64,000 nucleotides of DNA. Source: Tritonibacter litoralis. Lineage in GTDB: Bacteria > Pseudomonadota > Alphaproteobacteria > Rhodobacterales > Rhodobacteraceae. The position numbers were made by a program, and so were the translations under genes. Numbering within the stretch: position 1 is the stretch's first letter; each line of letters begins with the position of its first letter. Shown in pieces: positions 5,420-56,664 of this stretch. The stretch covers positions 1-64,000 of the forward strand of contig NZ_WIBF01000004.1 in assembly GCF_009496005.1 (NCBI RefSeq), written 5' to 3'. The notes beneath the pieces are model-generated. The model had not been told where the DNA came from, ran no database searches, and worked only from the letters and a program-made list of their open reading frames with translations.

Positions 5420-5572
5420 CTGATATTTTGGAATCGGGGACCTTCGGGGCCCTATATACTTGGTCACCTGAACCCGTCGCACCACGATTAAGGCGCAGCA
5501 AGGCAGGGGGCTTTCACATAGCGGTATCCAGTTCTTCCCCGGGTATCGCACGCTAAACGGAAGACAGAAAGC

Positions 5573-53963: not shown

Positions 53964-54608
53964 ATGACAGGAAAACGTGGACTATTTGACGTCCAGGGGC
54001 TCACCATCGGGGTGATCCTCTGTGCGCTTGGCATCTTGTTCTTAAAATCGGCCGGTTTGGTGACCGGGCAGGCGGCGGGGTTGGCGCTGTTGCTGTCCTA
54101 TGTTTTGCCCTGGGAGTTCGGGGTCTTGTTCTTTGCGGTTGGGGCTCCGTTTCTTGTGCTCGCATGGGGGCGTCGCGGGCCGGTGTTTACCCTTCGCACG
54201 TTGATCGTTGTGATCGGGATTTCCCTTTCGGTGGAAGCTTTGGGCCGTGTGGTGCTGATTGCGGACCCTGGACGCCCTCTCGCGGCGCTTTTGGGAGGCG
54301 TGTTGATCGGGATTGGGGTTCTGGCCGTGTTTCGCCACAATGCATCGGCCGGGGGGCTGTCGATCCTGTCTCTGGTGATCGAGCAAAAGACCGGGATCAA
54401 GGCGGGCTGGGTGCAACTGGGGGTGGATGGGCTGATCTTTCTCGCGGCCTGTTTTGTGCTTGAGCCCACACAGGTGGCCTATTCCTTTGTGGCGGCGGCG
54501 CTGATGAATCTGATCATCATCTGGAACTTTGACATCCGTCAGGCCCGCAGCGGAGGGCCTCTGGTGGACGACCCGGCGCAATCAAACGGCGAAACGCTGA
54601 AATCCTAG
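53964..54608 (+). CDS. YitT family membrane protein (first copy)
   Basis: The 214-residue protein has about six membrane helices and the YitT layout, with FDVQGLTIGVILCALGILFLK, GLVTGQAAGLALLLSY and FRHNASAGGLSILSL. Family function is unknown; some members look like transporters. A close copy follows 107 bases downstream. AAAAGGA precedes the ATG. Confidence 0.85.
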   Translation: MTGKRGLFDVQGLTIGVILCALGILFLKSAGLVTGQAAGLALLLSYVLPWEFGVLFFAVGAPFLVLAWGRRGPVFTLRTLIVVIGISLSVEALGRVVLIADPGRPLAALLGGVLIGIGVLAVFRHNASAGGLSILSLVIEQKTGIKAGWVQLGVDGLIFLAACFVLEPTQVAYSFVAAALMNLIIIWNFDIRQARSGGPLVDDPAQSNGETLKS

Positions 54609-54715: not shown

Positions 54716-55318
54716 ATGCGTTCACCAATTTCTTTTTATGATGTTCAAGGCATCGCCTTTGGCATTTTGATGTGTTCCCTGACGTTGCTGTTCCTGAAAT
54801 CGGCGGGGCTGGTCACCGGGCAGCTGGCGGGGCTGGCGTTGCTTTTGTCCTATGTTCTACCGCTGAACTTTGGCACGTTGTTCTTTCTGGTGAGCCTGCC
54901 GTTTTTTGTGTTGGCTTGGCTCAAGCGTGGACCGGATTTCACCCTGCGGACCATTGCAGCAGTTGTCGGGATCTCGCTTCTGGCGCCGCAGCTGGCGCGG
55001 TTCATTTCCTTTGACAGCCTTGATCCCATGGTGGCGGCGGCCGTGGGTGGTTCGTTGGGAAGTATTGGCGTGATCGCCCTGTTTCGTCATGGCGCATCCG
55101 CGGGTGGCGGCACGATTTTGGCATTGGTGGTGGAGCAGAAAACCGGCTTCAAAGCCGGGTGGTTTCAGCTGTGTGTGGATGGGGCGATTTTCCTGGGCGC
55201 GGCCTTTGTTCTGTCCTGGGATTTGCTGCTTGTCTCTTTCCTGGGGGCGGCCGTGACCAATATGCTGATTGCCTGGAATTTCGACATCAGCCAGGCGCAG
55301 CGCAAGCCTGCAACCTGA
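54716..55318 (+). CDS. YitT family membrane protein (second copy)
   Basis: This 200-residue protein is a paralogue of the gene just upstream. Both share FLKSAGLVTGQ.AGLALLLSYVLP, FTLRT, FRH.ASAGG and EQKTG.KAGW.QL.VDG, so they come from a tandem duplication. It has the same six-helix layout and a slightly shorter C-terminus. Its own promoter region holds a palindrome, so the copies may be controlled apart. Confidence 0.85.
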   Translation: MRSPISFYDVQGIAFGILMCSLTLLFLKSAGLVTGQLAGLALLLSYVLPLNFGTLFFLVSLPFFVLAWLKRGPDFTLRTIAAVVGISLLAPQLARFISFDSLDPMVAAAVGGSLGSIGVIALFRHGASAGGGTILALVVEQKTGFKAGWFQLCVDGAIFLGAAFVLSWDLLLVSFLGAAVTNMLIAWNFDISQAQRKPAT

Positions 55319-55385
55319 GGCGCGTTGAAATCATTGGGAAAATTTCCTGTCGACAGGCGCGCGAATCTCCGCTAGCGTTTGCCGC

Positions 55386-55463
55386 ATGACACAGACCTTT
55401 GCCTCCTTCTGGTATTTTTATTATCCGCGCCACATGGCGGTCGGAGGATCTGTCGCGTTCTGA
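55386..55463 (+). CDS. Aromatic leader peptide of the DAHP synthase attenuator
   Basis: A 25-codon frame reads MTQTFASFWYFYYPRHMAVG and ends five codons later in TGA. It packs Phe, Trp, Tyr, Phe, Tyr, Tyr in a row at codons 8-13, directly upstream of the gene for the first aromatic-pathway enzyme. This is the classic plan of a ribosome-controlled attenuator. The hairpin CGCC-ACAT-GGCG (55428-55439) starts four codons past the aromatic run; a terminator follows at 55494. No clear Shine-Dalgarno is visible. Confidence 0.75.
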   Translation: MTQTFASFWYFYYPRHMAVGGSVAF

Positions 55464-55528
55464 ACATACCCAGAGAAACGCACCATCCACACCAAACCGC
55501 CTCGCTCCCGCAGGCGGTTTTTTTGTTT
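55428..55528 (+). promoter_or_regulatory. Attenuator: pause hairpin, antiterminator and terminator
   Basis: The terminator is AAACCGCCT (55494-55502) paired with AGGCGGTTT (55512-55520), followed by a T-run. Its left arm ACCGCC (55496-55501) can pair instead with GGCGGT (55436-55441). That GGCGGT is otherwise held in the pause hairpin 55428-55439. A ribosome stalled on the Phe/Trp/Tyr codons would cover the pause hairpin's left arm, free GGCGGT, and so block the terminator. Shortage of aromatic amino acids would then raise expression of the synthase. Confidence 0.7.
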
Positions 55529-55581
55529 CCGCTGCCCCAGGGACCCGAGGCTCCGCACACCACGACACAGGAAGCCCCGAG

Positions 55582-56664
55582 ATGACACAACAAACCCAGG
55601 ATCTGCGGATCACCAAGATGAAAGAACTGACCTCCCCCAAAGAGCTGGCTGAGGCGATTCCCGCCACATCCAAAGCGCTGGAGACCGTGATCGAAAGCCG
55701 CCGGACCATCCAGAACGTGCTGCACGGGCGCGATGACCGGCTGGTTGTTGTGGTGGGCCCGTGCTCGATCCACGATGTGCCGGCCGCGATGGAATACGCC
55801 CGCCGCCTGGCGCCCTTGCGCGCGGAACTGGGGGATGCGCTGGAGATTGTGATGCGCGTCTATTTCGAGAAACCCCGCACCATTGGCGGCTGGAAAGGGC
55901 TGATCAATGACCCCGGCATGGATGAGAGCTTCCGTATCAATCTGGGTCTGCACCGGGCGCGCCAGCTGTGTCAGGATATCAACGCCATGGGCCTGCCGGT
56001 GGGGACTGAATTCCTGGACGCTCATGTGCCGCAATACATCGCTGATCTGGTGGCCTGGGCCGCAATTGGCGCGCGCACAACCGAAAGCCAGATCCACCGC
56101 GAGATGGCATCGGGTCTGTCCTGCCCCGTGGGCTTCAAAAACGGCACCCGAGGCAATGTACAGATCGCGATTGACGCTGTGCGCTCGGCCGCACGCCCGC
56201 ATCATTTCATGGCGCTTGCGCCCTCTGGTCGGGCAGCAATTGGTGGCACCGCGGGCAACCCCGATTGCCATGTGATCCTGCGCGGCGGCGGCGGCACCAA
56301 CTTTGACGCAGACTCTGTGGATGCGACCTGCCGTATGGCGGAAAAGGACGGTATCCGCGGCCATGTGATGATTGACGCAAGCCACGCAAATTCCAGCAAA
56401 GATCCCGAAAAACAGCCCGAGGTTCTGGCCGATGTACGTGGACAGATCTCGGTGGGCGACAGCCGGATCACCGGGGTGATGGTCGAAAGCCATCTGGTCG
56501 CCGGTCGTCAGGATCTGCCCAAGGACGGCGATCTGTCAAAACTCACCTATGGCCAGTCGATCACCGATGGTTGCATCGGCTGGGAGGCCACCGAGGTTGA
56601 GATGAACAAGCTGGCCGAAGCCGTCCGCAACCGCCGCGCCGCGCTGTCTCGTCTGGCGGGGTAA
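55582..56664 (+). CDS. aroG: 3-deoxy-7-phosphoheptulonate (DAHP) synthase, class I
   Basis: The 360-residue enzyme joins phosphoenolpyruvate and erythrose 4-phosphate, the first step of the shikimate pathway. It is the AroF/G/H type: VVVGPCSIHD, EKPRTIGGWKGLINDP, GTEFLDAHVPQYIADLVAW, SGLSCPVGFKNGTRGN and MIDASHANSSKDPEKQP, holding the metal and substrate residues. The frame opens within the leader at 55399; the ATG at 55582 after AGGAAG gives the usual length. In other bacteria the paralogues differ in feedback by Phe, Tyr or Trp; the leader here is mixed, so transcription may answer all three. Confidence 0.95.
   Translation: MTQQTQDLRITKMKELTSPKELAEAIPATSKALETVIESRRTIQNVLHGRDDRLVVVVGPCSIHDVPAAMEYARRLAPLRAELGDALEIVMRVYFEKPRTIGGWKGLINDPGMDESFRINLGLHRARQLCQDINAMGLPVGTEFLDAHVPQYIADLVAWAAIGARTTESQIHREMASGLSCPVGFKNGTRGNVQIAIDAVRSAARPHHFMALAPSGRAAIGGTAGNPDCHVILRGGGGTNFDADSVDATCRMAEKDGIRGHVMIDASHANSSKDPEKQPEVLADVRGQISVGDSRITGVMVESHLVAGRQDLPKDGDLSKLTYGQSITDGCIGWEATEVEMNKLAEAVRNRRAALSRLAG

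Follow-up and report, generated by a model that had tools for sequence, protein, structure and literature searches.

Through DAHP synthase, carbon is committed to all three aromatic amino acids, Phe, Tyr, and Trp, together. Because the enzyme feeds three end products, matching its supply to all three is a real question. E. coli matches DAHP synthase supply by three isoenzymes and repressors. In enteric bacteria, the trp and pheA leaders work by a switch of four segments whose control codons specify the end product, one amino acid for each leader (summarised in PMC11802643).

Several aromatic leaders have been described in other systems. AroR, the attenuator of the DAHP synthase gene aroF in C. 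glutamicum, carries a Phe-Tyr-Phe leader (PMC11802643, PMC4046766), and the consulted text of one report describes it as responding to Phe and not to Tyr (PMC11802643). In S. meliloti, rnTrpL/peTrpL is a leaderless trp attenuator whose RNA begins directly with the leader ATG (PMC7298713, PMC10117765), and leaderless mRNAs are reported to be frequent in Caulobacter (PMC4117421). The uORFC-13-1 motif, located before aroF, is given in the available text of its report as occurring in Acholeplasma and environmental sequences only; it includes a ribosome-binding site and one or more Phe residues (PMC8632094). Two predicted uORFs linked to the shikimate pathway carry Phe and Tyr (PMC6429828), predicted motifs were reported upstream of aroF and aroH in Shewanella (PMC2659441), and putative attenuators were listed near tyrA (PMC1173090).

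The window analysed here was a stretch of 64,000 nucleotides from Tritonibacter litoralis. Sequence comparison argued, at a probability of about 0.9, that its class I DAHP synthase gene is controlled by ribosome-mediated transcription attenuation in the region upstream. No description of this leader was found in the literature searched, whose coverage did not extend to a key 2004 survey and to the supplements of papers.

Layout of the leader region

All features of the locus were on the forward strand. The leader ORF (MTQTFASFWYFYYPRHMAVGGSVAF, 25 codons) was located at 55386–55463, with the ATG at 55386 and the TGA at 55461–55463. Its control codons, Phe-Trp-Tyr-Phe-Tyr-Tyr, were codons 8–13 (55407–55424). 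The predicted 1:2 pause hairpin UCCGCGCC (ACAU GGCG(GU)CGGA) occupied 55424–55445, with an energy of -9.8 kcal/mol. Segment 2, GGCGGU (55436–55441), could pair with segment 1 or segment 3, and its core GGCGG was present in 31/31 family leaders. Segment 3, ACCGCC (55496–55501), could pair with segment 2 as the antiterminator or with segment 4 as the terminator. The predicted intrinsic terminator (AAACCGCCT/AGGCGGTTT) covered 55494–55524, with a 9-bp stem at 55494–55520 and a T7 tract at 55518–55524, and lay between the leader and the synthase gene. A sequence-only reading of this DNA had named the leader, the hairpin, the pairing, and the terminator; each was found where it had been placed, and the antiterminator that it proposed, GGCGGT at 55436–55441 with ACCGCC at 55496–55501, was an exact complementary match.

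The synthase gene (55582–56664, 360 aa) started 118 nt after the leader TGA and was preceded by AGGAA (55569–55573), which by its sequence is its likely ribosome-binding site. A profile search of the product gave 498 bits for TIGR00034 (cut-off 173) and 310 bits for PF00793, which identifies it by sequence as a class I (AroFGH-type) DAHP synthase, an enzyme in the pathway of the amino acids that the leader is predicted to sense. Two tandem genes of the YitT membrane family (PF02588), at 53964–54608 and 54716–55318, were located just 5' of the attenuator.

The best sigma-70-like match upstream of the leader consisted of a predicted -35 element, TCGACA (55350–55355), and a predicted -10 element, TAGCGT (55373–55378), separated by a 17-nt spacer, with 7 nt between the -10 element and the leader ATG. 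A stricter promoter scan gave no promoter at the window locus. Among 65 distinct class leaders, the best match ended 6–8 nt 5' of the ATG in 59, mostly with a 17-nt spacer, and the same spacing was found in 15% of shuffled upstreams. In four of the six exceptions (L005, L069, L087, and L088), an in-frame ATG lay 7 nt 3' of the -10 element. The value of 59/65 came from the plain listing; an alternative rule that accepted an upstream in-frame ATG gave 56/65, picking ATGs within -10 boxes. Outside the class, the spacing was found in 12/22, and the mismatches were barely better than those of shuffled sequences.

A Shine-Dalgarno-like motif was absent 5' of the ATG of the window leader and preceded the ATG in 1/87 leaders, or 2/87 by another motif list, an uneven comparison in which 15 nt were taken before the leader vs 49 nt at the synthase start. 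The leader mRNA is probably leaderless, with a predicted start at or beside the ATG, like S. meliloti trpL. This probable start bears on the coupling of translation and transcription by leaderless mRNAs.

The locus was also evaluated as a single sequence. When six frames were searched, the window contained one run of at least five aromatic codons, which was the block of the leader; 40 windows simulated under a Markov null gave expectations of 0.1 runs of 5 or more and 0.025 runs of 6 or more. The Markov null, together with the conservation described below, ruled out a chance origin of the run. The 161-nt region had a folding z of -3.17 against shuffles. The terminator scan detected one site at the locus vs 0.5 expected in shuffles, which is weak evidence when taken alone. 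The 2:3 duplex of the window leader showed no gain over dinucleotide-shuffled leaders (p 0.143), and p < 0.05 was obtained in just 27 of 87 distinct leaders, each tested singly. Since the duplex alone was not above shuffles, support for the pairing came from the comparison between genomes.

A search against all families of Rfam 15 gave no match at the locus above a gathering cut-off, and at E up to 10 the locus matched unrelated families only, far under their cut-offs; a known Rfam leader was rejected on this ground. The sole Rfam match above cut-off in the window was an L2-Alphaproteobacteria ribosomal protein leader at 5436–5570.

Distribution of the leader across genomes

In the genus draw, the synthase gene was found in 18/18 genomes, and the leader in 17/17 readable copies, one copy being cut by the contig end. 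In the family outside the genus, the gene was rare (9/149 genomes in one draw and 19/395 in another, own genome included), and the other family copies with readable upstream DNA had the leader in 17/17, with L121 as a further, truncated copy. The class draw gave the gene in 10/289 genomes, own included; the leader was present in seven of the nine others, a Phe-Tyr-only version in L083, and L080 was cut. In the phylum draw, the gene was found in 193/348 genomes at E <= 1e-80, and 21/21 further class members had the leader. The sequence-only reading had set loss of the leader frame and the pairing in relatives as its refutation; instead, the leader was kept throughout the genus (17/17) and the other family genomes (17/17), as well as in 7/8 of the class draw, the eighth being the Phe-Tyr-only version, and in the 21 class members examined from the phylum draw. 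For the class in total, an aromatic-rich leader preceded 62 of the 63 copies with readable upstream DNA, the 63rd being the Phe-Tyr-only version.

Outside the class, the leader was found in 19 of the 47 genes examined and was absent from 28, these 47 having been picked from the listing and being non-random. The 40 phylum-draw genes were likewise hand-chosen from the listing, a non-random sample. In Dyella, leaders of the RYYFWYGY type were present at 4/4 loci. Of 157 upstream regions examined, 101 had a leader candidate, and leader and terminator occurred together in 99 of these. Rows L018 and L064, with a truncated gene, L080 and L121, with a truncated upstream region in which the terminator end alone was visible, and L041 and L162, with spurious leader calls, were excluded, and L092, whose start is unclear, was omitted from the pairing and distance counts.

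The order of promoter-like element, aromatic ORF, and terminator before the synthase gene bears on another explanation, in which the terminator merely ends the transcript of the yitT-like gene upstream and the ORF is fortuitous. The yitT-like gene at 54716–55318 does have the same orientation. However, many genomes kept the order of the three elements 5' of the synthase gene, and the aromatic run was unexpected by chance; on these two grounds the explanation was rejected as very improbable.

The L083 leader (MNAARTLSARFYPRSIAGGIRGA, class genome G396) had one Phe and one Tyr only, a natural reduced version, and retained the promoter-like element, segment 2, and the terminator. A second leader type, with an FYWF block and a separate synthase lineage, was found at four loci of the window's family (L074, L075, L122, and L123), and three of these had a segment 2 of the CAGCGG or CCGGCGG type. 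A tree of 111 synthases, built by a quick method and with many open forks, showed that leader types tend to follow synthase lineages; the window's family had two leader types (the L001 type and that of L074, L075, L122, and L123) with two synthase lineages. Most of the actinobacterial loci among L036–L066 had a short ORF containing a Tyr-Trp-Arg-Phe block, then APG, before a class I DAHP synthase, for example NAYWRFTEAPGG in Tsukamurella and RAYWRFFIEAPG in Gordonia, and Mumia had GRFYG instead. Judged by sequence, these ORFs look like a separate aromatic leader family.

A covariance model of 31 leaders was searched against 198 family genomes and gave 11 matches at E <= 0.01, of which 10 were immediately 5' of the synthase gene; such a model can miss divergent leaders. 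Two candidate second copies were rejected. The match in G055 (E 0.009) was judged a chance match, located with an ordinary terminator at the end of an operon that we take to be a permease operon. The pattern match on contig C23 of the window genome was not in a leader and sat among long ORFs, which presumably are flagellar export genes.

The window genome also encodes a type II DAHP synthase, and no aromatic-rich ATG leader was present in about 400 nt upstream of it. One small TTG-start ORF with Phe-Tyr-Phe was located in that upstream stretch, about 68–143 nt 5' of the type II DAHP synthase match (L085). One further PF00793 gene was found in the window genome; its size, we assume, fits KDO8P synthase.

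RNA pairings and coding constraint

Two alignments, A1 (31 family leaders) and A2 (39 leaders), were hand-picked from the 87 distinct leaders, and near-duplicates and the divergent L074 type were left out of A1. For the terminator (3:4) in the 39 leaders, 94.2% of cells were paired and 30 cells had two-sided changes, values attained in 0/500 shuffles each; two coarser measures of the five were no better than shuffles (143/500 and 117/500). For the antiterminator (2:3) in these 39 leaders, 81.3% of cells were paired (11/500 shuffles as high) and 12 cells had two-sided changes (31/500 as high), and two of the five measures were no better than shuffles (179/500 and 285/500). When the register of the antiterminator was slid, the paired cells fell to 15.7–59.6%. 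RNAalifold analysis of the segment 2–3 region within the family gave five invariant pairs only and no covariation, which is absent from the 2:3 core there because the core is invariant. In the family, 90.7% of the cells of the 1:2 hairpin were paired, which did not exceed its shuffles, and no covariation was seen.

The pairing was also examined in leaders anchored on GCGG/CCGC, a count that did not include L084, L097, and L128, which have no GCGG (3/86). The next pair was kept in 83/83 anchored leaders (G-C 78, A-U 4, and G-U 1), as in 0/2000 shuffles. Three further positions were above shuffles (0, 0, and 9 of 2000), and two were not (858 and 1066 of 2000). All these pairing shuffles ignore the relatedness of the leaders. 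Duplexes of leaders with their own terminators beat reassigned ones (0/2000). When the sequence spanning segments 2 and 3 was folded, the antiterminator formed with its core paired in 86/86, at a mean z of -2.9; this sequence had been cut at the core, which biases the folding toward the antiterminator. By sequence, one arm of the predicted antiterminator lies within the leader ORF, and the antiterminator would exclude the terminator.

Codon analysis of A1 showed synonymous change at codons 2–12 except Trp9, and Trp9 was invariant in 31/31 family leaders. Phe and Tyr were exchanged at codon 5 (14 F/14 Y), codon 11 (19 F/10 Y), and codon 12 (18 Y/13 F). At codon 17, the residue was M, Q, T, or K and the third base always G, and Ala18 was always GCG. 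Codons 17–18 thus form the segment 2 core GGCGG, which was invariant though the peptide varied, and the CCGCC partner was likewise invariant. Of the 83 anchored leaders, 75 had GCGG in frame 0, five in frame 2, and three in frame 1; since it was found in differing frames, conservation there acts on the nucleotides rather than on the peptide. The leader is a short ORF with a conserved frame and clustered codons for the end products of the pathway, and its translation is predicted.

The leader sequence drifted wherever it was neither control codon nor paired segment. This drift weighs against a further role, besides attenuation, in which the terminated leader RNA or the peptide would act in trans, like rnTrpL/peTrpL. 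The probable leaderless start, as for rnTrpL, the strong conservation of the peptide in the family, and the S. meliloti precedent (PMC7298713) are consistent with such a role, which we consider unlikely. The ORF, its frame, the aromatic control codons, the pairings, and the terminator are established across many genomes by comparison of sequences, and from these we infer the start site, the translation, the stalling, and the readthrough of the leader.

Predicted amino acid sensing and known systems

In the proposed attenuation mechanism, transcription would begin at the leader ATG or directly beside it. When charged tRNA-Phe, tRNA-Tyr, and tRNA-Trp are plentiful, the ribosome would reach the stop codon and block the antiterminator, and the 3:4 terminator would form. 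A ribosome slowed in the Phe-Trp-Tyr-Phe-Tyr-Tyr block would cover segment 1, leaving GGCGGU free to pair with ACCGCC while segment 4 is still unmade, and transcription would continue into the gene. The last aromatic codon was 11–17 nt 5' of segment 2 in 83/86 leaders; a ribosome stalled there would therefore cover segment 1 and free segment 2. In an equilibrium folding model, for which the leading edge of the ribosome was assumed, 2:3 dominated for stalls across the aromatic run when segment 4 was unmade, and with the ribosome at the stop codon 2:3 was impossible and the terminator followed. The stall positions were not told apart by this model, in which the terminator won everywhere once segment 4 was present.

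The distances to segment 2 in the window leader were 26 nt for Trp9 and 14 nt for Tyr13, the last Tyr. This difference raises the possibility that the attenuator senses Phe and Tyr only, the Trp codon being too far upstream to matter. Trp was missing from 9/87 distinct leaders, with Phe and Tyr in 87/87; L083 retained Phe and Tyr alone; and AroR is described as answering to one of its two amino acids (PMC11802643), all of which point the same way. However, Trp9 was kept in 31/31 family leaders while its neighbours were swapped, an invariance weakened as evidence by the fact that no single base change turns a Trp codon into one for Phe or Tyr. In addition, although 26 nt was the commonest distance from Trp to segment 2 (48/77 Trp-bearing leaders), 13/77 placed Trp at 14–17 nt. 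Sensing of Phe and Tyr only is thus plausible and, in our view, well short of an even chance. In this genus, Phe and Tyr would be expected to act most strongly, and Trp is the least certain.

We propose, tentatively and at somewhat below even odds, that in Alphaproteobacteria, and in part of the wider Proteobacteria, class I DAHP synthase has one leaderless leader as its standard control, which acts as a three-input switch. If this is true, the Phe and Tyr codons would be interchangeable, with Trp added, and shortage of any one aromatic amino acid would open the entry to the pathway. A single leader could then merge three signals without a protein regulator. The leader is sufficiently conserved to test the sensing of several amino acids cleanly at the level of codons.

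The leader resembles the enteric trp and pheA leaders in its four-segment switch and its control codons for end products, and those leaders differ in sensing one amino acid each. The sequence-only reading had set this leader apart from single-residue leaders; the mixture of Phe, Trp, and Tyr stood, but AroR was already a mixed leader, Phe-Tyr-Phe (PMC11802643), so the contrast holds in part. Compared by description, AroR shares with the present leader a mixed aromatic leader peptide and attenuation before a DAHP synthase gene; unlike it, AroR is actinobacterial, and its Phe-Tyr-Phe block is without Trp as described. The rnTrpL/peTrpL system is, like the present leader with its predicted start, a ribosome-dependent alphaproteobacterial attenuator, whereas it has Trp codons only and precedes trpE(G). 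The uORFC-13-1 motif is also a predicted aromatic uORF before a DAHP synthase gene and differs in its ribosome-binding site and its origin from Acholeplasma, as far as the consulted text of its report describes it (PMC8632094). Both shikimate-linked uORFs are likewise aromatic and located before shikimate pathway genes, and according to the part of the source consulted they may overlap with the present leader (PMC6429828). The attenuation mechanism is thus classical and mixed-codon leaders are already known; the leader described here is a real, widely conserved member of this known mechanism, classical ribosome-mediated attenuation.
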